From a bacterium (GTDB taxonomy: Bacteria; Patescibacteriota; Saccharimonadia; Saccharimonadales; UBA4665), in the NCBI GenBank assembly GCA_027448765.1, contig DAIDMV010000008.1, forward strand, positions 1 to 37,836: a stretch of DNA of 37,836 nucleotides, given 5' to 3'. Below are positions 1,808 through 37,035 of this stretch, piece by piece (positions within the stretch are counted from its first letter, which is position 1; each line of letters opens with the position of its first letter). Under the pieces are notes generated by a model, which made no database searches, was not told where the DNA came from, and saw only the letters and a program-made list of their open reading frames with translations. Made by a program: the position numbers and the translations under genes.

Positions 1808-4471
1808 CTATAGATCGCCCCACCGATAGCCAGTTTTTATATCCACAGTTAACCTAACCTTTAATTTATAGACGTTTTCCATTATATCTCGAACAGATTT
1901 AGTCAAACTATCAACGACACTTTCTTGACATTCTAAAAGGATAGAATCATGAATTTGAAGCAATAACTTTGAATCTAGTTGATGTTTATTTAAAAACTCA
2001 TCTAGACTAATCATAGATAATTTCATTAAATCCGCCTCAGTACCTTGAATCGGCATATTAATTGCTGCTCTTTCAGCAGAGTGTCTAATTAAAAAATTTT
2101 TAGAATTTATTTCCGGCAAAGGTCTTCGTCTACCAAATAAAGTTTCTACATAACCGTCATTCCTTGTTTTTTTAATTATTTGATCCATATAATCAAATAA
2201 AGGTTTTCTTAACTGTTTATATTGATTAATAAAATCAGTTGATTCGTTTCTGTTCATTCCAGTAGCAACCGATAAACCATGTGGACTCATTCCATATAAA
2301 ATTCCAAAATTAATTGCCTTGGCAGCTCTGCGCATATTCGGTGTAACGTTATCAATCGAACAATTATATATCCTAGCGGCTGTTTCTGTGTGAACATCGA
2401 TGTCTTGCTTATTAAATAATTCAATTAAATCAACGTCATTAGCTAAATCAGCCGCAATTCTTAGTTCAAATTGTGAATAATCAGCTGATAACAATATATA
2501 ACCTGGTCTAGCAATAAACGCTTTACGAATATCATTACCTAACTTACTTCTAATTGGAATATTTTGTAAATTTGGCTCTGAACTCGACAATCTACCAGTT
2601 TGAGTTGAGGTTAAATTAAATGTTGTGTGAAGATTATTTGATTTGTCGACTAAACCAGGTAAAACATCCAAATAAGTATTCTTTAATTTAATAATTTCAC
2701 GAAACTTAATAATATGAGTGATAATTGGATGCAAACTGATAATCTTTTCTAATTGAGATGAATTTGTCGAATAAAAACTTTTACCTTTCTTAATGCCCTG
2801 ACTTGAAATATTTAATTGATTAAATAAAATATCAGACAATTGTTTTGGACTTTCAATGTTAAATTCTTGGTTCGCATAACCAAAAATTGTTTGTTGCAAA
2901 TCAGATTTCATGTCATCTATTTGACGACTCATTGCATGAAAATAATCTAAATCAATCCTAATACCATTAAGCTCCATTTTTGCCAGAATATTTAATAGCG
3001 GCAAATCAAAATCTATTAATATCTTAAATAATTCTTTATTTTGCTTTATTTGCTTTGTCTGTATTTCATAAACTTCAATTAAATATGAAGCGATTTCTTG
3101 AGATTTTAAAACTAATCCTTCTTCACTAAGATCACTATAATCTATAATTAAACTCTTAAAATATTCATTAATGATGCCGTCAATATTCTGATTTTTTATT
3201 AATGGATTCAATAAAAAGGCTGCCAATCGATAATCATGTTTGATATTTATTGGATTTATTTTTTTATTAAGAAAAAATTTAATTAATCTTTTTGAATCAA
3301 AACTAATTATTGGTTGATTAATGATTTTATTTTTTAAAACATAGTCTATAAAATCATTTTGATTGATCTTACTAAAATTAATCAAAAAACTCTTTGCTTT
3401 ATCAGCTATAATAACAGCTCGTAAATTTAAGCCTTGATGATCTTTAAAAAAAGGTATTATAAAAATCTCCTGGTGGCTTAACTTTAAATTATCAAGATGA
3501 TCCAAATTAACATGGTCAGTTTTTTTAATTTTTAAATTATCACTAGTTTTATTAACTATCTCAATAGAATCATCATTCCATTGAAAAATTTTTTTGGCTA
3601 ATCTTATGACGCTGTTAAAATTATATTCTTGCAAAACACTCAATAATTCGTTTTGATTGACATTATGAATGTTCATCTTCGACTTGTTGAATTCAACCGG
3701 TGCGTCAAGCATGATTTGAACTAACTGACGACTCAAAAAAGCCATTTCTTTATCTTTAATTAATTTTTCGGCAATTTTTTTATCAACTAAGGACAAATTT
3801 AAATAGATATTATCTAGACTATCAAAATTTTGTAATAATTTTTGAGCTGTTTTCTCACCAACACCTTTAACGCCTGGTATATTATCTGAAGCATCACCCC
3901 GTAAAGACTTATAGTCTACAAATTGATCAACTCTAATATTATATTTTTTATAAAACGAATCTGCTGTAAATTGCTCTATTTTACTTAAACCACTTTTTAA
4001 AACATATAAATTAATGTTATCGTCAATTAATTGCAATAAATCTAAATCAGAAGTAACCAAATAAGTTTCTACACCCTTTTTTTTAGCCTGAATAGCTAAA
4101 CTTCCCATAATATCGTCAGCCTCATAATCATCTAATTCAATCAATGGCCACGACAAGGCTTCAACAAGTTTAAACAAATACGGTAACTGATCATAAAATT
4201 CTGGTGGAGCTGGATGACGATTAGCTTTATACAGGTTGTACATCTGTTTTCTTTTTCGGATATTTGTTTTTGATTTATCCCAGGCTACTGCAATATAGTC
4301 AGGTTTCAAATTATCTACTATCTGTAAAGCCAATAAAGTAAACCCATAAACTCCCCCAAGACCAATACCCTGATTATTAGTTAGGTTTGGCATAGCATAA
4401 AAACCACGATAGAATAAGCCCTTACCGTCAATAATAACAAGTTTTTTTTCGAAATTATTTTCATTACTCAT
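1808..4471 (-). CDS. polA: DNA polymerase I
   Basis: 887 aa, full length for the family. Residues ~10-300 are the 5'-3' exonuclease (flap) domain, with AVAWDKS, YEADDIMGSLA, TSDLDLLQL and the helix-hairpin-helix GVKGVGEKTA. The C-terminal polymerase domain has motif A (LLSADYSQFELRIAA), motif B (RRAAKAINFGILYGMS) and motif C (QIHDSILLE, with Asp near 842), so DNA synthesis should be intact. The middle domain does not show the DxE proofreading motif: the aligned strand reads EIFIIPFFKDHQ. Loss of 3'-5' exonuclease activity is common in Pol I of several lineages. Role: Okazaki fragment processing and repair synthesis. The ATG at 4471 lies seven bases after TATAAT, again leaderless. Divergent from the ATPase-like gene at 4555. 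Confidence 0.97.
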   Translation of the reverse strand: MSNENNFEKKLVIIDGKGLFYRGFYAMPNLTNNQGIGLGGVYGFTLLALQIVDNLKPDYIAVAWDKSKTNIRKRKQMYNLYKANRHPAPPEFYDQLPYLFKLVEALSWPLIELDDYEADDIMGSLAIQAKKKGVETYLVTSDLDLLQLIDDNINLYVLKSGLSKIEQFTADSFYKKYNIRVDQFVDYKSLRGDASDNIPGVKGVGEKTAQKLLQNFDSLDNIYLNLSLVDKKIAEKLIKDKEMAFLSRQLVQIMLDAPVEFNKSKMNIHNVNQNELLSVLQEYNFNSVIRLAKKIFQWNDDSIEIVNKTSDNLKIKKTDHVNLDHLDNLKLSHQEIFIIPFFKDHQGLNLRAVIIADKAKSFLINFSKINQNDFIDYVLKNKIINQPIISFDSKRLIKFFLNKKINPINIKHDYRLAAFLLNPLIKNQNIDGIINEYFKSLIIDYSDLSEEGLVLKSQEIASYLIEVYEIQTKQIKQNKELFKILIDFDLPLLNILAKMELNGIRIDLDYFHAMSRQIDDMKSDLQQTIFGYANQEFNIESPKQLSDILFNQLNISSQGIKKGKSFYSTNSSQLEKIISLHPIITHIIKFREIIKLKNTYLDVLPGLVDKSNNLHTTFNLTSTQTGRLSSSEPNLQNIPIRSKLGNDIRKAFIARPGYILLSADYSQFELRIAADLANDVDLIELFNKQDIDVHTETAARIYNCSIDNVTPNMRRAAKAINFGILYGMSPHGLSVATGMNRNESTDFINQYKQLRKPLFDYMDQIIKKTRNDGYVETLFGRRRPLPEINSKNFLIRHSAERAAINMPIQGTEADLMKLSMISLDEFLNKHQLDSKLLLQIHDSILLECQESVVDSLTKSVRDIMENVYKLKVRLTVDIKTGYRWGDL

Positions 4472-4554: not shown

Positions 4555-6600
4555 ATGGTGGAACGTTTAAAAATATCCGAGTACTACGAACTCAGCATAG
4601 ATGAGATATTTAAAAAATTAAAATCGAGTGAGAGTGGCATTAATCATCAAGAGGCGGTTAAAAGAATTGCAAAGTATGGCAACAATCATTTTAAACTTCC
4701 CAGAGATAAGATATTAAAAAAAATAAGCGATAATCTGTTATTAAATCTAAATTTATTAAATTTGATACTTGGTTTAATCTTGTCGGTAATCGGAAAAAAT
4801 AAATTATTTATAATAGTTTTTTTAATCTTTATAATACTAGAAATTATACTAAACTTATTCAGAACACTAAAAAATAATAGTCTCTATAAAACAATGTTAC
4901 CTCGTAAAATAACCATCATTAGGCCTGAACAAAAAATTTATACATCATCTACCAATCTAGTGCCTGGTGACGTAATTGAAATTCATAAAAACGAAATTGT
5001 TCCCGCTGATGTTCGAATTATTAATAATCATTTAAATATTAACGAACATAATTTATTTTATAATTATGAAAACCCGAACTTTTTATTTATGGGTGAAGTT
5101 AATTACGGTCAGACAATTAAAGCCATAGTTGTTGAAACAGGATACAAAACTGAACTTGGACAATTATTACTAAAAAATAACTTAATCAATTATCGTGATT
5201 TTATTTTTAATAAAATAATAAAAAAATACTACCTAATTAAGATTGTTTTGCTTATAAGCATTACAATCTTAATTTTTTTAATAAATCTGAATCTTCAAAT
5301 ACCCATCAATCAAATTGTTAATATTTTATTAATATTAACAATGGGCTCTGTTTTCTTAACAGAACTGGATAATATAAATAATAAAAAACTTAAACTAAAT
5401 TTAAAAAATAGTTTTCAAATAGCTTATACGAATTTAATCAACATTGACCAAGATACCTTATTTAACCATAAAGATAATTTTGAAAAAATTAATAAATTTT
5501 TAAATCAAGGTATTAAGCTAATAATTTCATCTGAAGATAATCAACAGAAATTATTAAAATATCTGACCCAAAATAAAATACCACACAAGCTGATACCAAA
5601 AAATAATTTTGAAAACTTAAAAGACCAAGAAATTATCAAACTAATCAGCACCAATAATGTTATTTTAATAACTGGCTTTAATCACAATAATAATTTAAGA
5701 TTATCGGAAATTTTAAAACACTATAACATAAATAATTTATATATAACAAAACATTTAAGCGATCTAGCAGCAATCAAAAACTCTTCCGCCGGTATAATAA
5801 TTAATCACGAATTACATCTTAAACATCAAAGAAACTTAGATAATTTGATTATTTCAAAACTGCAATTCTCTTTTGAAACTATTATAAAAAACGCTAGACT
5901 GAAAATTATCAATTTAGAAAATATTATTATTTTCAATTTGATGTTATTTTTTTCAATTACTTTTATAACATTTTTAGGATTCATTAACTATTATTTCTAT
6001 AATATACCGTATATAATTAACCCCGTACAAGTATTAATTATACTGATACCAATTCAATATTTATTAATTCATAACTTTAATCAATCAAATAACAATAAAA
6101 CTATTTTACATAAGAATAATTTTTTCAATCAAATTTTTAGTATAGAAAATTTAAAAAAAATTATTCTTACCCCGTTACTTTTTAGTTTAATGTCTTATTT
6201 AATCTTTATTTTAATTTTTAAATTCAGTCAAATTTCACCATATCATATCGACTTGAGTAATCCAATTTATCTTCAAGCAACAACTTCAGTATTTATATTT
6301 TTTAATCTTACTCTTTATATCAATATGTATTTTAATATCAAAAACAATAAATCTAACTATTTTTTTAATCGGAGACTAGTTTTAATTATTTTAATCAACC
6401 TACTTATCCTCCTACTGAGCCTATATACTAATATTTTACGACATTACATTTGGTCACTTAACTTGATACAATTATCAACTATTGTGGTAATTAGTCTTAT
6501 TTATTTCGTTTTAAAATTACTCGGTCAGCACATTAAAAAACATAACAGAAAATCAATTCTCACACTGCACGAGGAAATAATTCATCTAATAAATCAGTGA
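4555..6600 (+). CDS. P-type-ATPase-like membrane protein lacking catalytic motifs
   Basis: 681 aa. The N-terminus (residues ~7-55) matches the cation-ATPase N-terminal domain: ELSIDEIFKKL, then GINHQEAVKRIAKYGNNHF. Residues 136-154 (VPGDVIEIHKNEIVPADVR) and 175-203 (NFLFMGEVNYGQ, then ETGYKTELGQ) match the actuator region. Membrane segments lie at ~60-105, 225-270 and six more at ~455-655, like a P2-type pump. The catalytic part is reduced: the phosphorylation motif DKTGT is replaced by NIDQDTLFN (295-304), the nucleotide-binding domain is almost entirely missing, the P-domain TGD reads SSED (325-328), the GDGxND loop reads ITGFNHNNN (372-380), and the M4 PEGL is absent. A continuous frame of this length argues for maintained function, but not as an ATP-driven pump. 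The sequence is extremely AT-rich (14 G/C of 60 in 5641-5700 by hand count). Its 3' end overlaps the kinase gene by 41 bases, convergently. A fast-evolving pseudogene is the alternative. Confidence 0.85.
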   Translation: MVERLKISEYYELSIDEIFKKLKSSESGINHQEAVKRIAKYGNNHFKLPRDKILKKISDNLLLNLNLLNLILGLILSVIGKNKLFIIVFLIFIILEIILNLFRTLKNNSLYKTMLPRKITIIRPEQKIYTSSTNLVPGDVIEIHKNEIVPADVRIINNHLNINEHNLFYNYENPNFLFMGEVNYGQTIKAIVVETGYKTELGQLLLKNNLINYRDFIFNKIIKKYYLIKIVLLISITILIFLINLNLQIPINQIVNILLILTMGSVFLTELDNINNKKLKLNLKNSFQIAYTNLINIDQDTLFNHKDNFEKINKFLNQGIKLIISSEDNQQKLLKYLTQNKIPHKLIPKNNFENLKDQEIIKLISTNNVILITGFNHNNNLRLSEILKHYNINNLYITKHLSDLAAIKNSSAGIIINHELHLKHQRNLDNLIISKLQFSFETIIKNARLKIINLENIIIFNLMLFFSITFITFLGFINYYFYNIPYIINPVQVLIILIPIQYLLIHNFNQSNNNKTILHKNNFFNQIFSIENLKKIILTPLLFSLMSYLIFILIFKFSQISPYHIDLSNPIYLQATTSVFIFFNLTLYINMYFNIKNNKSNYFFNRRLVLIILINLLILLLSLYTNILRHYIWSLNLIQLSTIVVISLIYFVLKLLGQHIKKHNRKSILTLHEEIIHLINQ

Positions 6601-7153
6601 TTATCTGTTGTAATTGTTTTTTTGTACCCTCATTATAAATAGTTCGATCTGCTATTTTCTTAACTTCTAACATATTTAAAGTTTGACTATCATTATGAAT
6701 AATCATTTCAGCTTCTTCTTCCCTGATAAAATTTTCAAAACTTATTTGATCTGTATCAGGATGACCTCTCAAAGATAAACCTTGCTGAATTCTTTCATAT
6801 CTCATTTTTGGATCAGCATCTATCCAAATCATAAAACCATGATTGTTTTTTATACTAATGGCTTCTTGAAAATTTCGAATAGAACCAACTACTAATCCAT
6901 CATTACTAATTTTTTTTTGAGATTTATATTCTTCTAAAGCTTTTTTAATTAAAACATCCTGACCAAATTGTCGTCTCCAAGAACTACTAATATCACTTAA
7001 GTTTTGTCTAGTCTGATTAACCTTCCGTTTTTCAGCTTCTTGCCTTATGATCAAAGATAACGAAATATAAAAAAAATTAAAATCATGAACTAATAAATCA
7101 GCTACTGTATCCTTACCGGAACCGTTGGTACCAGATAGTCCAATTAATTTCAT
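6560..7153 (-). CDS. P-loop nucleotide kinase-like protein
   Basis: 197 aa. Begins MKLIGLSGTNGSGKDTVADL, a Walker A loop of the GxxGSGKDT type found in dephospho-CoA kinase, (d)NMP kinases and AAA_18 kinases. A later strand GLVVGSIRNFQEA fits the 'dxxRn..E' element of that group, and WIDADPKMRYERIQQ followed by RGHPDTDQISFENFIREE fits the LID region. The end (NEGTKKQLQQIITDLLDELF) is a typical C-terminal helix. Substrate cannot be told from the sequence; a dephospho-CoA kinase or nucleoside monophosphate kinase role are both possible. It sits six bases downstream of rpoD on the same strand, so it is probably the last gene of the dnaG-rpoD operon. Confidence 0.8.
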   Translation of the reverse strand: MKLIGLSGTNGSGKDTVADLLVHDFNFFYISLSLIIRQEAEKRKVNQTRQNLSDISSSWRRQFGQDVLIKKALEEYKSQKKISNDGLVVGSIRNFQEAISIKNNHGFMIWIDADPKMRYERIQQGLSLRGHPDTDQISFENFIREEEAEMIIHNDSQTLNMLEVKKIADRTIYNEGTKKQLQQIITDLLDELFPRAV

Positions 7154-7159
7154 ATTTTT

Positions 7160-8284
7160 TTAACCAATGTAATCGTGTAATTTTTTTGCGTCTCTGTGTT
7201 TGCGTAATTTACCAAGAGCTTTGGCTTCAATTTGTCTTATTCTTTCTCTGGTCACACTAAATTCTTGACCAACCTCTTCTAAGGTGTGGCTTTTACCATC
7301 TTCAAGACCAAACCTTAATTTTATAATCTTTTGTTCCCGATCAGTCAAAGAAGACAACATATCTTTTACTTGTTCTTTTAATAATTGACTGGTCGCTGAT
7401 TCTTCAGGTGTAATCGTATCTTCGTCTTCAATAAAATCTGATAAAACTGAATCTTCGTCTTCATCTCTAATTGAAGCGTCTAATGATGTTATGTCTTGTT
7501 TGATTTTCATAATATGTTCAACTTTATCAATATCAATTTCCATAGCATCAGCAATCTCTTGATTGGTCGGCTCTCGGTTTAATTCTTGCGTTAATCGCCT
7601 TTGGGTTCTTAATAATTTATTAATAGTTTCAAACATGTGTACAGGAATTCTAATAGTTCTTGCTTGGTCGGCTATCGCTCTCGTGATTGCTTGTCGAATC
7701 CACCAAGTTGCATATGTTGAAAACTTAAAACCTTTATCTGGGTCAAATTTTTCAACAGCTCTTAATAAACCAGTGTTACCTTCTTGGATTAAATCTAATA
7801 AATCTAAACCACGACCAACATATCTTTTAGCAATACTGACCACTAAACGCATATTAGCTTCAGCCATCTTATCTTTTGCTTCTCTATCACCTTCAACTAC
7901 TCTTTTAGCTAAAGCTAACTCTTCATCACTTTTTAGAAGTGGTATCTTACCGATTTCTCTCAAGTATAGTCGTACTGAGTCGTCTGCGATATCATCCTCT
8001 ATAAAAAAGGTTTCATTGCTTAAATCCTCTGTTATCTCTTCTTCTGACCATTCTTCGGACAAATCTGGCGTAATCGATAATGGCTCATCTGGTAGTATGT
8101 CAATATTATTTGAGGCTAGTTCGGTATATAAATTATCTAGTTTTTCAACATTATCTGAATTATCAGGATACAAATCATAGATTTCTTTTTGAGTAATCTG
8201 ACCTTTGTTCTTGGCTTTTTCTACTAGATTTTCTTTTTTTGATGATAAGTCGTCATCTTGATTTTTAAGGTCTTTTTTTGTCAT
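7160..8284 (-). CDS. rpoD: Primary sigma factor (RpoD/SigA)
   Basis: 374 aa. After an acidic, charged N-terminus (~1-95) comes region 1.2 ([16 protein letters not shown]), region 2 ([20 protein letters not shown], then [20 protein letters not shown]), region 3 and region 4 with the helix-turn-helix [20 protein letters not shown]. Region 2.4 and 4.2 residues that read TATAAT and TTGACA boxes are conserved, in agreement with the promoters seen in this window. It lies three bases after dnaG and has a Shine-Dalgarno sequence (AAGGAG) within the end of dnaG, as expected for an internal operon gene. This is the classical primase-sigma part of the macromolecular synthesis operon; rpsU is not present here. 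Confidence 0.97.
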
Positions 8285-8287
8285 AAA

Positions 8288-10051
8288 CTACTCCTTAAAT
8301 TTATTTAATAATTGATTAAGTTTGTCGATTTTTTTTAAAATTTTTATTGAATCTTCTTCATTTAATTGATTATTCAAAACGTCTTTTTTAAAAATTTCCT
8401 TTTGATATTTAACATAATTATCTATCAGCCTGATCTTTAAAAAATTAGCTTCATAGTGTAAATCTTCTAAGCTAATTGAACGATATTTTTCATCATATAA
8501 TAATGATAATATTTTAACATAATCAACAATATTTTTCCATTCTGAATCATTAGACTTATTAATAATAGTTTCATAATCAAGATCTGAATGTTTTTTTAAT
8601 AATTCAAATAACGTTTTTGATTCCTGATTTAAAAAATATTCCTCGTTTAAACCTTTTAATAAATCTCTTAGCGATAATCTAGCTAAGACAATTGATAAAA
8701 AATTAGTCTGAAGACGATTAGCTTCATCCAAAAATGGATTTAATTTTTCTTGATGTTTTTGAAGGTTAGGTTTTGCTAAAAAAACTTTATCTAAATTATA
8801 ATTATATGATTTTTTTGTAATAGAATCTTTCGAAACCTGCAATAAATCACTTAAAAGATTAAAATAATGATCTTTTTCTATTTCGTCATTAAGATTTTGT
8901 ATAATAGGCAAAATATTACTAGAAAAATTCTTTTTTCCGATTGATGTATTAACATCATAAATCTTTCGATAATAATCTATCAACCAATCGATCGCATAAA
9001 TCTTATCATTAACGGCATTAACCCACATATTGGGATCAATTTTTATTAATTCATCAGGGTCTTTACCTTGAGGTAGATTAATCACATTAACATCTAAATT
9101 AATTTTTGAAGCCAAATTAATAGCTCTCTTGGTCGCATCTACACCGGCACGATCACTATCAAAACATAATCTAATATCAGATACAAAGCGAGAAATTATT
9201 TTTAAGTGATAACTCGTTAAGGCGGTACCTGCAGTCGCAATCACATTTTCTACTCCAGCCTGATAAGAAGCAATAACGTCTAAATTACCCTCTACCATGA
9301 CGGCAAATTTATTTTTTCGTAAACTATTTTTAGCCTGAGATAATCCAAAAACATGGCGACTTTTATCATATAAAATAGTTTGGGGAGTATTAATGTACTT
9401 TGGCGAGTTTTTAGTATTATCATTTAATAGTCGTGCAGTATAACCTATTACCTTACCCATTTCGTCTTGCAAAGGAATCATTAAGCGATCACGAAACATA
9501 TCTTCATCATAACGACTCAATAATCCAGACGATTTAATATCTTTTAAATCAAATTTTCTTTTTAATAAAAAATTTTTGAGACTGTCTCGACTAGAATCAG
9601 CATAACCCAGTCTCCATTCAGCGACAGTCTTTTTATCAAATTTTCTTTTTAAAAAAACATACTCTAGAGCAATTTGATTATTCTTTAAATTTAATTGAAA
9701 AAATTTAGTACTTATTTCTAGGATTTCAAATAATTTCTCTTTATTTTGACCACGATGATTTTGAGTTCTAAACTGATCTGGATCTAGTCCGGCTTTACGA
9801 GCCAAAAGATTTAAAGTCTCTTTAAAACTAAGGCCCTCCATCTCCATTACAAAACTAAACATATTACCCCCACGACCAGAACTAAAATCATGCCAAATTT
9901 GTTTCTCTGGGCTAACAATGAAACTTGGTGTTTTTTCATTATTAAAAGGACTAAGGCCTCTCCAATTACTGCCAGACCGTTTTAATTGTACGTATTCAGA
10001 AATTACATCCTCTATATTAAGTCTATTTTTAATTTCTTCAACTAAATCCAT
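8288..10051 (-). CDS. dnaG: DNA primase DnaG without zinc ligands
   Basis: 587 aa. Makes RNA primers at the replication fork. The N-terminal domain is clearly the CHC2 zinc-binding fold (GLSPFNNEKTPSF, then VSPEKQIWHDFSSGRGGN), yet each of the four metal ligands is replaced: Cys to Ser34, His to Asn37, Cys to Asp55 and Cys to Ser58. The TOPRIM catalytic core is intact, with EGNLD (Glu254, Asp258) and DSDRAG (Asp298, Asp300). The C-terminal ~200 residues should bind the helicase DnaB; I see no strong motif there. The ATG at 10051 is six bases past TATACT. First gene of the operon with rpoD. The zinc loss looks specific, because the surrounding fold residues are well preserved. Confidence 0.96.
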   Translation of the reverse strand: MDLVEEIKNRLNIEDVISEYVQLKRSGSNWRGLSPFNNEKTPSFIVSPEKQIWHDFSSGRGGNMFSFVMEMEGLSFKETLNLLARKAGLDPDQFRTQNHRGQNKEKLFEILEISTKFFQLNLKNNQIALEYVFLKRKFDKKTVAEWRLGYADSSRDSLKNFLLKRKFDLKDIKSSGLLSRYDEDMFRDRLMIPLQDEMGKVIGYTARLLNDNTKNSPKYINTPQTILYDKSRHVFGLSQAKNSLRKNKFAVMVEGNLDVIASYQAGVENVIATAGTALTSYHLKIISRFVSDIRLCFDSDRAGVDATKRAINLASKINLDVNVINLPQGKDPDELIKIDPNMWVNAVNDKIYAIDWLIDYYRKIYDVNTSIGKKNFSSNILPIIQNLNDEIEKDHYFNLLSDLLQVSKDSITKKSYNYNLDKVFLAKPNLQKHQEKLNPFLDEANRLQTNFLSIVLARLSLRDLLKGLNEEYFLNQESKTLFELLKKHSDLDYETIINKSNDSEWKNIVDYVKILSLLYDEKYRSISLEDLHYEANFLKIRLIDNYVKYQKEIFKKDVLNNQLNEEDSIKILKKIDKLNQLLNKFKE

Positions 10052-16687: not shown

Positions 16688-16764
16688 TGGTACACCCGAT
16701 AGGATTCGAACCTACGACCTTTGGCTCCGCAAGCCAACGCTCTATCCAGCTGAGCTACGGGTGC
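16688..16764 (-). tRNA. tRNA-Arg (anticodon GCG)
   Basis: A full cloverleaf can be drawn on the minus strand: acceptor GCACCCG with CGGGTGT, D-arm GCTCAGCTGGATAGAGC, anticodon stem TTGGC/GCCAA with loop TTGCGGA, and T-arm GTAGGTTCGAATCCTAT. The anticodon is GCG, which reads CGC and CGU. The discriminator is A and the 3' CCA is encoded. A TATAAT box (16787-16782) lies 17 bases upstream of the mature 5' end. The 5' half and promoter have a decayed copy at 12751-12803. Confidence 0.95.
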
Positions 16765-17635: not shown

Positions 17636-17726
17636 GGAGAGGTCGCATAGTTGGTCTAGTGCGCTGCACTCGAAATGCAGTATAGATTTTTTTCTATCGA
17701 GGGTTCGAATCCCTCCCTCTCCGCCA
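17636..17726 (+). tRNA. tRNA-Ser (anticodon CGA)
   Basis: Acceptor GGAGAGG with CCTCTCC, anticodon stem CTGCA/TGCAG with loop CTCGAAA (anticodon CGA, reads UCG), a long variable arm typical of serine tRNAs, T-arm with GGTTCGAATCC, discriminator G and encoded CCA. Length 91 bases. Confidence 0.96.
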
Positions 17727-33515: not shown

Positions 33516-33608
33516 TGGCGGAGAGAGAGGGATTCGAACCCTCGCGGGGAATCTCTTCCCCCTATCGCGTTAGCAATGCGACCCCTTCAGCCTCTTGGGT
33601 ACCTCTCC
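33516..33608 (-). tRNA. tRNA-Ser (anticodon GCU)
   Basis: Minus strand: acceptor GGAGAGG with CTCTCTCC-type partner strand, anticodon loop TTGCTAA (GCU, reads AGC/AGU), long variable arm (GGGGGAAGAGATTCCCC), T-arm GGTTCGAATCC, encoded CCA. The anticodon stem has one A-C mismatch next to the loop (position 31-39), which does not prevent recognition. It lies six bases downstream of the other tRNA-Ser in the same orientation. Confidence 0.93.
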
Positions 33609-33614
33609 ATAACT

Positions 33615-33704
33615 TGGCGGAAGGGGAGGGATTCGAACCCTCGGTAACATTGCTGCTACACTGGTTTTCAAGACCAGCTCCATCGACCGCTCGGACACCC
33701 TTCC
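33615..33704 (-). tRNA. tRNA-Ser (anticodon UGA)
   Basis: Minus strand: acceptor GGAAGGG with CCCTTCC, anticodon stem CTGGT/ACCAG with loop CTTGAAA (UGA, reads UCA and other UCN), long variable arm, T-arm GGTTCGAATCC, discriminator G and encoded CCA. First gene of a two-tRNA unit. Confidence 0.95.
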
Positions 33705-34437: not shown

Positions 34438-34866
34438 TTAAGCAGCACTAATGACGTAATGAACGATGATCTGAGCTACCACAACAATTACTAGCCCGAC
34501 AATTGCATAAACTAAGGTATTTTTAGCACCACTAACTTTTTCACCAGCTCCACCTGAAGTAATATAACGAAAACCAGAATAAATAATCATGATGACGGCA
34601 ATTATACCAACTATAATGGTAAAGATATTAACTACCTTGGTAGCTAAACTTTGTATGCTAGGTGAAAGACCATTTGATGAGGAAGCTCCACAACTACCTG
34701 ATGTACTTCCAGTAGCATTATTAACTCCCTGACACAAACTATTAGTAATTGAGTTACTTGAAGAAGCCGCAAAAGCTGAAGTTGCTAAAGCAGGCACAAA
34801 AGTTGGACTAATCATAGTCAGAGTCATTACTGCCAAAATGCTAATTTTTTTAATTTTTGATAACAT
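34438..34866 (-). CDS. VirB2/TrbC-like pilin 1 of 6
   Basis: 142 aa. Signal peptide or first helix (ISILAVMTLTMISPTFVPAL, with a probable cut after an Ala-x-Ala), a Ser/Asn-rich stretch with two cysteines (SLCQGVNN and GSCGASS), then two membrane helices joined by the conserved hairpin IIYSGFRYITSGGAGEKVSG. This is the layout of type IV secretion pilins VirB2/TrbC. It is the last gene of the cluster and is set apart by 65 bases, with its own Shine-Dalgarno sequence (AAAGG) and a possible separate promoter. It may assemble into a conjugation- or attachment-type pilus; no secretion ATPase is in the window. Confidence 0.82.
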   Translation of the reverse strand: MLSKIKKISILAVMTLTMISPTFVPALATSAFAASSSNSITNSLCQGVNNATGSTSGSCGASSSNGLSPSIQSLATKVVNIFTIIVGIIAVIMIIYSGFRYITSGGAGEKVSGAKNTLVYAIVGLVIVVVAQIIVHYVISAA

Positions 34867-34931
34867 AGAAACCTTTCTTTATATTTATTAATTTTATACT
34901 ACACTTTGGGTAAAAAAATCAAATTTTAATC

Positions 34932-35324
34932 TTATTTTCCTGCTGTGTTGATAACAAAATGAACAATTACTTGAGCGATAACAATAATTATTAAACCAAC
35001 TATAGCTCCGATCAAAGTATTTTTAGCGGAATTAACTTTATTGCTATCACCACCAGAAGTTATATACCTATAACCAGAATAAATGATTAAAACCAAAATT
35101 ATAACACCAGCTACATAAGTTAAAATATTAACCACATTAGCAACAGCTGAATTTGACGAACCAACTATTCTATTACCCTTACAGCTATTGCCAAGCTCAT
35201 TAGCCCCTTGAAGAGCATAGTTACTAGAGCTATTCGACGTACTACAACTAATCAAATTAATAGAACTAAAGCTTAAAAAATTTATTGCAGCAAAACTAAC
35301 AAATATTAAAATTATTTTCTTCAT
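34932..35324 (-). CDS. VirB2/TrbC-like pilin 2 of 6
   Basis: 130 aa. N-terminal helix (IILIFVSFAAINFLSFSSI), Cys-Ser region (SCSTSNSSS and LGNSCKGNR), then a helix pair around IIYSGYRYITSGGDSNKVNS. This is the closest relative of pilin 1; the two share YxYITSGG, K-V, AKNTL and GL in register, and both end in a QxIVHxVI segment. The ATG overlaps the stop of pilin 3 at 35324, which indicates translational coupling. Confidence 0.82.
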   Translation of the reverse strand: MKKIILIFVSFAAINFLSFSSINLISCSTSNSSSNYALQGANELGNSCKGNRIVGSSNSAVANVVNILTYVAGVIILVLIIYSGYRYITSGGDSNKVNSAKNTLIGAIVGLIIIVIAQVIVHFVINTAGK

Positions 35325-35716
35325 TATTTTATATTACTTATAACTACATTAATAATAATCTTAGCTACAACAATTACAGCCAAACCGATTAAAGAAAAAA
35401 TTATTCCGTTTTTAGCGGAATTAACTTTATTGCTATCACCAGCCGCCCAAGCGTATCTAATAGCAGAAATTATAATCATAATTACAGCCAAAACACCAGC
35501 GGCTTCAATTAGAATATTAACAATATCGGCTATTCTTAAACTTACTGGGTTACTTGAAGTATTAGTGGTCTTAGTGCTACAGATTGCTGAAGACGAACCG
35601 CCTTGTGTACAATCTTGACTAAGATTAAAACCATTACCACTAGCCATAGAAATACCAGGCAAGGTAATTAAAGCTAAACATAAAACTGCCATACTGTATA
35701 AAATTATTTTCTTCAT
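35324..35716 (-). CDS. VirB2/TrbC-like pilin 3 of 6
   Basis: 130 aa. Signal peptide (LYSMAVLCLALITLPGISMA), short polar region with two cysteines (SQDCTQGG and AICSTKT), helix pair around IIISAIRYAWAAGDSNKVNS, then AKNGIIFSLIGLAVIVVAK. The hairpin GDSNKVNSAKN is identical to that of pilin 2, but the preceding YxxxS(G) segment is AIRYAWAA. Three bases separate it from pilin 4. Same role as its neighbours, with a probably different position in the fibre (inference). Confidence 0.8.
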   Translation of the reverse strand: MKKIILYSMAVLCLALITLPGISMASGNGFNLSQDCTQGGSSSAICSTKTTNTSSNPVSLRIADIVNILIEAAGVLAVIMIIISAIRYAWAAGDSNKVNSAKNGIIFSLIGLAVIVVAKIIINVVISNIK

Positions 35717-35719
35717 TAT

Positions 35720-36025
35720 TTAAGTTTTATTAATTACAAAAGCTACCATTGCTTCCGCTAGAATAGCCACAGCTAACCCTATTAACGAATACAAAATACC
35801 GTTTTTTGCTTTATTAACTTTTTGCGGATCACCATTAGAAACAATATAACTAATTCCAGAAATTACTATAGAAAGGGCAGCCAGAGAACCTAAAACAGCA
35901 AACACTATCTGAAGAATAGTGTTTAGCTCAGAACCAGTAGCTAAACCACCTTTTTGTGCTCCGGGTAAACTACTAAAGTTAGCTCCGGCTAAATATAAAA
36001 CTTTTCTAAAAATTATATCTTTCAT
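35720..36025 (-). CDS. VirB2/TrbC-like pilin 4 of 6
   Basis: 101 aa, the shortest. It has no standard signal peptide: the start MKDIIFRKVLYLAGANFSSL is only weakly hydrophobic. The two-helix core is normal, with the hairpin VISGISYIVSNGDPQKVNKA and AKNGILYSLIGLAVAILAE. No cysteines. Three bases downstream of pilin 5. Absence of a processed leader could mean direct membrane insertion, or a start misplaced in this crowded operon. Confidence 0.78.
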   Translation of the reverse strand: MKDIIFRKVLYLAGANFSSLPGAQKGGLATGSELNTILQIVFAVLGSLAALSIVISGISYIVSNGDPQKVNKAKNGILYSLIGLAVAILAEAMVAFVINKT

Positions 36026-36028
36026 TTT

Positions 36029-36529
36029 TTAACCTAAACTATGCCCAATATATGTTACAAAAACTATAGCTGAAATAGCAATAACTAGACCAATTAAAGC
36101 GAATAAAATACTTTGACGTGCCTTATTGGCTTTTTCTGGATTTCCTTGACTGGTCACATATTCAAATCCAGCATAAATTATATAAACAACTGCCACAACC
36201 CCGGAAACTCTTAAAAGATCATCAATAATCGCCATAACCACCAAAACAATAGAATTACCCTGAGCGCCACAATGAGTGTTGTTAGAACTATTGGGAAAAA
36301 CATTAAAACAAACATTGCAGTTATTATTTGCAGTTTGATAGGTATTTAAGAATTCATACCATGGTTCTAGTCCAAAAAATGAAGATTTGCAACTAGAAGC
36401 AGCCGCATCTAATCTAACGCCACTTTGATAAACTGAAACAGTCGTATTTTGAGAAACTAAAGTTTGAGAAACAAAGAAAAGTATAAATATACTCACCATT
36501 AAAAGTCGGAAAAAACCAAGTTGTTTCAT
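36029..36529 (-). CDS. VirB2/TrbC-like pilin 5 of 6
   Basis: 166 aa. Signal peptide (LMVSIFILFFVSQTLVSQN), then an outer domain with four cysteines (SSCKSSFFGLEPWYEFL, NNCNVCFN and THCGAQ) that could form two disulphides, then a helix pair around IIYAGFEYVTSQGNPEKANK. The FFGLEPWYEFL element with its neighbouring Cys is one I associate with Saccharibacteria pilin-like proteins, though only from memory. The ATG overlaps the stop of pilin 6 by four bases (ATGA). Confidence 0.8.
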   Translation of the reverse strand: MKQLGFFRLLMVSIFILFFVSQTLVSQNTTVSVYQSGVRLDAAASSCKSSFFGLEPWYEFLNTYQTANNNCNVCFNVFPNSSNNTHCGAQGNSIVLVVMAIIDDLLRVSGVVAVVYIIYAGFEYVTSQGNPEKANKARQSILFALIGLVIAISAIVFVTYIGHSLG

Positions 36530-37035
36530 TTGTTTAATAATCCTCCTGGAATTATAAACTGCAAAAATGAATAAAGAAAAATATAGGCTAAAAGCGCTAA
36601 TAAGGTATTGATTATTCTACCTTTAGCCTTAGCAGTTTTTTGCGGATCTCCTCCCGAAGAAGAATACATAATCCCAGCAACAATAATTGAAGCCATGGCT
36701 ACCAAAACAACTAGACCTGATAAAAGATTGATAGCCGGATTAATGTATGAAGTAAATAAGTGACAGCCTTTTCCTGATTCAGTACAAGAAGACGGTGGTT
36801 TTGTAGAAGATGGTGAGTTTGCAGGTGTTGTTAAACAATCTTGAGTATTTGAAGTATAACAACTAGCACAATTTCCGTTATTTAAACCACATGTTGAAGT
36901 AGGAGAAGTATTTGAACTTAACAAAACATAACTATTATTAAAGCTTCGGCTAAAACTAAAAATCAAGATTAAAGCTATGAAGATAAAGACACTAAAATGT
37001 GAAATTTTTTTTATGAAGCTTTTTTGTTCTAACAT
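36526..37035 (-). CDS. VirB2/TrbC-like pilin 6 of 6 (first in operon)
   Basis: 169 aa, most divergent of the set. One N-terminal helix (FSVFIFIALILIFSFS), an outer Ser/Thr/Pro-rich region with about six cysteines (TCGLNNGNCASCY, QDCLTT, SSCTESGKGCHLF), and a helix pair around IIVAGIMYSSSGGDPQKTAK. The second helix lacks the conserved Gly-Leu (reads LLALLAYIFLYSF). The leading gene of the operon; it starts 71 bases from the divergent secreted protein gene. The extra cysteines and position suggest a special, perhaps tip or base, subunit (inference). Confidence 0.76.
   Translation of the reverse strand: MLEQKSFIKKISHFSVFIFIALILIFSFSRSFNNSYVLLSSNTSPTSTCGLNNGNCASCYTSNTQDCLTTPANSPSSTKPPSSCTESGKGCHLFTSYINPAINLLSGLVVLVAMASIIVAGIMYSSSGGDPQKTAKAKGRIINTLLALLAYIFLYSFLQFIIPGGLLNK

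Follow-up and report, generated by a model that had tools for sequence, protein, structure and literature searches.

What may a P-type ATPase be retained for once its catalytic machinery is gone? P-type ATPases are usually viewed as pumps, whose support helices merely brace the transport core. The question is raised by the window, i.e., the whole stretch of DNA analysed here (37,836 nucleotides of contig DAIDMV010000008.1), and the genome carrying it is referred to as G000. An uninterrupted frame of 681 codons, read in the original prediction as a P-type ATPase fold deprived of its ATPase machinery, occupies exactly positions 4555-6600 of the forward strand, with an ATG start and no internal stop. 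Its product is hereafter called the window protein.

The polA-rpoD locus and its occupants

The features of the locus are the following:

1808..4471, - strand: polA, the divergent neighbour marking the slot, the same in intact and dead relatives
4555..6600, + strand: pseudo-P-type ATPase gene (681 aa, ATG start, stop at 6598-6600)
4582..4779, + strand: Cation_ATPase_N segment, residues 10-75 (PF00690, 33.2 bits versus a Pfam cut-off of 20.4)
4894..5337, + strand: actuator (A) domain, residues 114-261, extending into TM3 (PF00122, 55 bits versus a cut-off of 28.1)
5401..5874, + strand: degenerate P domain, residues ~283-440 (AF2 alpha/beta fold, alignment to intact pumps)
5446..5448, + strand: lost phosphorylation site, Asp298 in INIDQD (alignment; no DKTGT)
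5462..5510, + strand: approximate junction of the N-domain deletion (gap of ~225 residues versus intact orthologues)
5872..6540, + strand: C-terminal TM5-TM10, six helices (AF2 helices; C-terminal profile, 241 bits)
6223..6285, + strand: extracytoplasmic loop 7/8 and start of TM8, ISPYHIDLSNPIYLQATT (Ser and Ala common to 9/9 compared dead forms having the region)
6535..6597, + strand: basic amphipathic C-terminal tail, KKHNRKSILTLHEEIIHLINQ (comparable tails in the majority of intact and of shortened forms)
6560..7153, - strand: nucleotide-kinase-like gene, labelled dNK, with a 41-bp 3' overlap with the pseudo-pump gene (synteny)
7160..8284, - strand: rpoD, conserved neighbour (synteny)
8288..10051, - strand: dnaG, conserved neighbour (synteny)

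The gene order of the slot is mutM, polA, the ATPase gene, the nucleotide-kinase-like gene, rpoD and dnaG, and intact and dead occupants share the same polA-rpoD position and the same orientation. The genomes are small and gene-dense, with a content suggestive of Patescibacteria (Saccharimonadales-like). In the same family (93 genomes searched), the slot is usually either empty or occupied by an intact pump (900-970 aa); such a gene is absent from it in many members of the family, and two members of the window genus (G005 and G006) have no ATPase between polA and the kinase-like gene. Intact pumps were checked only when complete enough (21 belonging to the same family and two to other ones of the order), and 23/23 of these occupants (~930 aa) carry TGES, DKTGT, TGD, and GDGxND. 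Another member of the genus, G004, possesses a 684-aa orthologue of the window protein sharing 75% identity, the identical N-domain deletion, no stops, and the same 41-bp 3' overlap with the downstream kinase-like gene. A scan of named genomes retrieved two sister genomes and two weak matches in unrelated bacteria. A second sigma-factor-like gene, an RpoD homologue, adjoins polA in the slot of several relatives (L032, L038, L041, L042, L087, L096, and others).

Most of the searched genomes are fragmented drafts, and the shortened gene might be thought an assembly or reading artefact; the probability of this is practically negligible, as the same deleted form occurs in two genomes at 75% identity, the neighbouring genes are intact, and several shortened forms lie in assemblies of 4-8 contigs that are 94-97% complete (G112 and G016). 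The diverged G004 orthologue refutes this explanation.

Loss of the catalytic motifs

By descent, the window protein is a P-type ATPase: it belongs to the A domain and Cation_ATPase_N families (55 and 33 bits, in agreement with the actuator and N-terminal cation-ATPase segments proposed originally), it has the P2 fold, and its position between polA and rpoD is orthologous to that of the intact pumps. No Pfam match to a hydrolase or N-domain family was obtained for it, and the NCBIfam P-type pump models cover only its first ~270 residues, with scores far under the cut-offs.

The motif check did not retrieve TGES, DKTGT, TGD, GDGxND, PEGL, or KGAPE from the window protein. The absence of the first four, compared to their presence in 23/23 intact orthologues, bears out the claim that the ATPase machinery has been lost. 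PEGL, which had also been listed as missing, is indeed absent, but it is a weak criterion, since IPNGL, IPQGL, or a similar sequence stands at that site in the majority of the intact orthologues. In the A domain, the TGES loop is deleted or replaced (motif check and alignment); the sites of TGD and GDGxND read SSED and KHLSD, respectively, with the Mg-site Asp of the latter changed to Lys. The alignment with intact orthologues reads ...LINIDQ-DTLFNHKDNFEKINKFL, followed by a gap of ~225 residues and then by NQGIKLIISSEDNQ...LYITKHLSDLAAIK; the whole N domain is thus deleted between residues ~303 and ~318. The phosphorylation-site region is INIDQD in the window protein and IHINED in G004, and, because Asn stands in the orthologue at the place of Asp298, this residue is not a conserved nucleophile. 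Having no nucleophile, Mg site, dephosphorylation loop, or ATP-binding domain, the protein would therefore have no P-type pump cycle; judged by its sequence, it should not be an active pump by any of the features considered (DKTGT, TGES, TGD/GDGxND, and the N domain).

The transport path has changed as well. TM5 N, TM5 E, and TM6 D, which lie in the cation path and never vary among the 23 intact orthologues, have become F, I, and L in the window protein; in both the latter and G004, all three are replaced, mostly by hydrophobic residues, and the predicted TM6 and TM8 of the window protein contain no acidic residue.

Predicted structure

The AF2 model of the window protein (mean pLDDT 82.8, pTM 0.79) was obtained from an alignment of 51 related sequences that included intact pumps, and the fold prediction is thus not independent of homology; a model built from just four sequences (pLDDT 44) was discarded. 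The C-terminal helices are predicted at residues 440-482, 490-510, 530-557, 570-595, 606-624, and 637-662, so that all six membrane helices originally described fall between 440 and 662. The prediction had also held nearly the entire nucleotide-binding domain to be missing, which is right (~225 residues); as a refinement, the P domain is still present, in a degenerate form, at residues ~283-440, where pLDDT is mostly 80-96 and Asp298 closes the first strand at the point where DKTGT would stand. The assignment of Asp298 is based on the alignment with intact pumps given above and on this strand position; another, multiple alignment misplaces the window protein near DKTGT/TM4, putting TM4 residues at DKTGT. 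As a whole, the model contains neither an N domain nor a usable Asp-Lys-Thr, as expected for a protein without ATPase machinery.

Foldseek matched the model to H,K-ATPase, Na,K-ATPase, SPCA1, LMCA1, and MgtA with a probability of 1.00, an E value of 1e-20 for the Na,K/H,K-ATPases, and TM-scores, normalised to the query, of 0.55-0.69, the ten-helix membrane domain and the A and P domains being arranged in the P2 fold.

These data bear on two possible functions. A passive ion channel or leak derived from the membrane domain of the pump, one of the roles originally suggested, would fit the retention of a ten-helix membrane domain that AF2 folds confidently; moreover, the toxin-bound Na,K-ATPase is known to behave as a channel, and the Foldseek matches include PDB 9vj0. 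The suggestion is weakened by the replacement, in the window protein and G004, of the invariant TM5 N/E and TM6 D, mostly by hydrophobic residues, by the lack of acidic residues in the predicted TM6 and TM8, and by some shortened forms having too few helices for a cation path; we regard it as quite improbable. The folded P-domain remnant might instead belong to a transporter that is still active and draws on an energy source not yet recognised, or to one in which a separate polypeptide provides the missing domain in trans. This is very improbable, given the Asp/Asn exchange between orthologues, the Lys at the Mg-site Asp, the loss of the TGES loop, and the lack of the TM5/TM6 binding residues. 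Because TM5 N/E and TM6 D are hydrophobic in the window protein, neither a conventional cation channel nor an otherwise-driven transporter is favoured.

Selection acting on the window gene

The comparison of G000 and G004 gave a pS of 0.61, a pN of 0.13, a pN/pS of 0.21, and a dN/dS of 0.11 (counting method); the dN/dS is low throughout the protein (0.09-0.16 by region), the values of the neighbouring genes ranging from 0.03 to 0.31. The codon ML estimate was an omega of 0.03, with a delta lnL of 172 versus omega = 1. Synonymous sites are near saturation in this pair, which makes the exact dN/dS soft and leaves its direction firm. In a neutral simulation run to equal nucleotide divergence, a mean of 27 stops (minimum 14) accumulated, against zero observed. 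The window gene is not a pseudogene, because the G004 orthologue has no stops, dN/dS is far below 1, and about 27 stops would be expected under neutrality; the check on sister genomes therefore contradicts a pseudogene reading. For another pair of the genus, G001/G002, both dead, pN/pS is about 0.2; since synonymous change is saturated there, pN/pS alone is quoted, and the very large codon-ML t for such pairs is meaningless.

Strong purifying selection has thus acted on a sequence that had already lost its catalytic residues, which is what characterizes a pseudoenzyme, and the proposal of a retained pseudoenzyme stands after both the structural and the dN/dS checks. The window protein is almost certainly catalytically dead and under selection.

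Repeated loss of the motor across the family

In total, 13 dead slot occupants were found: five have full length but lack the motifs, and deletions have shortened the other eight, the smallest being of 232 aa. Within the window genus, an intermediate stage is represented by G001 and G002, which encode proteins of ~890 aa that keep the N domain; their nucleophile Asp is changed to Thr (TKTDKIT), TGES is lost, and GDGxND reads GDNIND. The window protein and that of G004 stand one step further. The other full-length, motif-dead proteins are those of G013 (DTAGILT, GSGVYT), G116 (DEAGFVT), and G034 (DTTDA; cut by the contig end). Shortened forms are harbored by G112 (548 aa), G104 (539 aa), G064 (340 aa), G014 (283 aa), G067 (245 aa, the weakest), and G016 (232 aa). 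According to an order-wide sample (393 genomes, E 1e-16), shortened forms are confined to this family.

In the polA+rpoD+dnaG tree, the dead occupants form ten separate groups among 24 intact tips, the count treating motor loss as irreversible. The clades joining a dead group to intact pumps have a support of 0.97-1.0 for six groups (it is 1.0 for both G112/G007 and G013/G074, each pair belonging to a single genus) and of 0.30-0.70 for the remaining four (G034, G016, G014, and the window genus). This topology implies that the motor was probably lost independently about ten times in the family. The locus therefore offers a natural series of about ten motor knockouts, with sister species that still bear the motor.

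Conservation of the C-terminal membrane module

Every shortened form retains the C-terminal membrane end, and none the N-terminal end alone; as a check on a bias of the C-terminal search profile, 40 further slots were fetched, and none contained an N-terminal-only remnant. For the dead lineages with a close intact relative, the identity of each region was expressed as a z value with respect to intact-intact pairs at equal polA divergence. In three of them, TM7-10 shows the conservation of a working pump (z of +1.0 in G013, +0.3 in G112, and +0.3 in G014). The other regions, where present, gave values of -4.0 and -5.1 (A domain), -2.0 and -3.5 (TM1-2), -1.5 to -3.5 (TM3-4), +0.1, -1.5, and -3.2 (TM5-6), and about -7 (P domain, in G013). 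Similarly, the pN/pS of TM7-10 is 0.30-0.39 in the three dead lineages versus 0.27 in intact pairs, that of the A domain about 0.5 versus 0.20-0.23. TM7-10 has thus been selectively retained in three lineages that lost the motor independently, and this suggests that the support domain has a second function.

The G013 protein (L061:6137-8980(+)) is an exception, in that its N domain (z +0.6) and TM5-6 are normally constrained while the A and P domains have collapsed; this dead orthologue may perhaps sense nucleotides without catalysis.

Erosion in the window genus is weakest in TM7-10, yet this region lies under the expectation (z of -1.5 to -1.8, against about -7 for the A domain), and in G116, G064, G016, and G067 it evolves fast (mean z about -2.5). 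All nine compared dead forms share the loop 7/8 Ser, an Ala and a Leu in TM8, and a Tyr in TM9; furthermore, the basic tail (rich in R/K, ...LxLH) is kept by most dead forms, even by those of 283 and 232 aa.

One could object that the gene is a decaying relic on its way out of streamlined genomes, with deletions that are in frame by chance and short frames that are transient. The lack of the gene in the slot of many relatives, including G005 and G006 of the same genus, and the fast evolution of G064, G016, G067, and G116 would agree with this idea. Against it, G000 and G004, both dead, show a dN/dS of 0.11 or below and zero stops over a long synonymous divergence, the equally dead G001/G002 have the low pN/pS given above, and TM7-10 is conserved in three independent dead lineages in which most else has collapsed. 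We therefore consider a relic unlikely.

A parallel pseudo-pump and other features of the window

A second motif-dead P-type ATPase, P1B-like and of ~615 aa, was observed in the same genus, with DKTGT changed to SKNGVLT, NKNGVIT, or TKNNVLN; it was not found in G000. Its loci are the following:

L140:2191-4035, - strand: P1B-like dead ATPase
L141:2950-4797, + strand: P1B-like dead ATPase
L142:3903-5753, + strand: P1B-like dead ATPase
L143:3122-4972, - strand: P1B-like dead ATPase
L144:3877-5721, - strand: P1B-like dead ATPase

The P1B-like homologues are intact in the six other genomes checked (DKTGT, TPCPL, GDGVND), and purifying selection acts on the dead form as well (codon ML for G003/G004, omega ~0.03).

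Elsewhere in the window, positions 34438-37035 encode five small proteins in a row, which resemble VirB2-type pilins; all five have hydrophobic segments and an N-terminus like that of a signal sequence, and several of them contain a YSGFRYITSGG...KVxxAKNT-type sequence. The window also harbors four tRNA genes (16691-16764, 17636-17726, and 33516-33704), for Arg (gcg) and three times for Ser (cga, gct, tga), two of the tRNA-Ser genes being in tandem.

A possible role for the retained protein

We can depict the following scenario. The window protein descends from an intact P2-type cation ATPase whose gene lay between polA and rpoD. In a first stage, the phosphorylation Asp and the catalytic loops would have been lost, most simply in the common ancestor of four genomes of the genus; in a second one, the whole N domain would have been lost on the line leading to the window protein and G004. 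Without autophosphorylation, the window protein would therefore be unable to run the E1-E2 cycle. The most likely task of TM7-10, together with the outward-facing loop 7/8 and the basic tail on the cytoplasmic side, would be to keep a partner within or at the membrane, and the ancestral, bifunctional pump may already have performed it alongside pumping.

The best explanation is, in our opinion, that the pseudo-pump is retained for a pump-independent docking or scaffold job of its C-terminal membrane module, with about an even chance of being correct; we infer both this role and its presence in the ancestor. It is favoured because selection keeps the outward loop, the four support helices, and the cytoplasmic tail, and in P2 ATPases accessory subunits bind there: in characterised members such as the Na,K-ATPase, loop 7/8 and TM7-10 are the place of accessory-subunit binding. 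Counting against a role specific to TM7-10, the selection seen between G000 and G004 spans the whole protein. The scaffold is also the one of the three functions originally suggested that fits best, although it is inferred. Whatever the retained job, it is dispensable in some lineages, because many genomes of the family have no gene in the slot.

Alternatively, the protein could be a subunit that regulates or helps to assemble some other membrane transporter, e.g., an active P-type pump encoded elsewhere in the genome, as had also been suggested. In fact, on another contig (L050:4685-7012(-)) G000 possesses an intact 775-aa pump resembling plasma-membrane H+-ATPases, and the binding of accessory subunits to loop 7/8 and TM7-10 of the Na,K-ATPase is established knowledge. 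The suggestion is weakened by the distribution of the two proteins: G001, G002, and G004 have the pseudo-pump and no intact P-type ATPase was detected in their assemblies (68-96% complete), whereas G005 and G006 have the H+-ATPase-like pump but no pseudo-pump. Co-retention with the H+-ATPase-like pump thus fails across the genus, and the data do not speak for a second P-type pump as an obligate partner, with the caveat of incomplete assemblies; the partner may also be a transporter of another type. A subunit role of this kind is unlikely.

The docking reading can be extended, with slightly less than even confidence, to the family. TM7-10, loop 7/8, and the basic tail would then represent a separable unit with a pump-independent job, which about ten motor losses within one family have set free and which, in the extreme, is encoded as a stand-alone membrane protein of 232-340 aa; in parallel, a P1B-type pump of the window genus would have turned into a pseudo-pump under selection. 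A second function is testable by comparing intact, motor-dead, and module-only versions of one protein. In addition, the annotation 'cation-translocating ATPase', when based on the A domain, can mislead in reduced genomes.

Comparison with known systems

By profile, the intact orthologues are nearest, among solved relatives, to the P2A Ca2+-ATPases (Listeria LMCA1, lmo0841, and human SPCA1; E 1e-170 to 1e-180), and Ca2+ is a putative substrate of these orthologues. The window protein shares their domain order and ten-helix fold but lacks the N domain, the phosphorylation site, TGES, and the binding-site residues. Its own best profile and fold matches are the P2C ATPases (Na,K- and H,K-ATPase alpha), in which loop 7/8 is an established partner-binding surface, and which, unlike the window protein, possess the catalytic machinery; no accessory subunit was found for the window protein. 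In animals, P2C ATPases have pump-independent roles. MgtA (P3B) is a good fold match, and one HMM match spans the profile of the dead protein from 13 to 667 (9zlk); unlike the window protein, MgtA is an active pump. The P6 ATPases (CtpE family) are the recently recognised and latest-added prokaryotic branch of P-type ATPases, and the passages of the review considered here describe no P-type family without catalytic motifs (PMC10654040).

CtpE is a Ca2+ uptake pump. Our search of the open-access full-text literature, which leaves subscription papers outside, found no report of a P-type ATPase pseudoenzyme. A general parallel is offered by pseudoenzymes such as the pseudokinases, in which, as in the window protein, the fold is kept, the catalytic residues are lost, and the sequence is under purifying selection.
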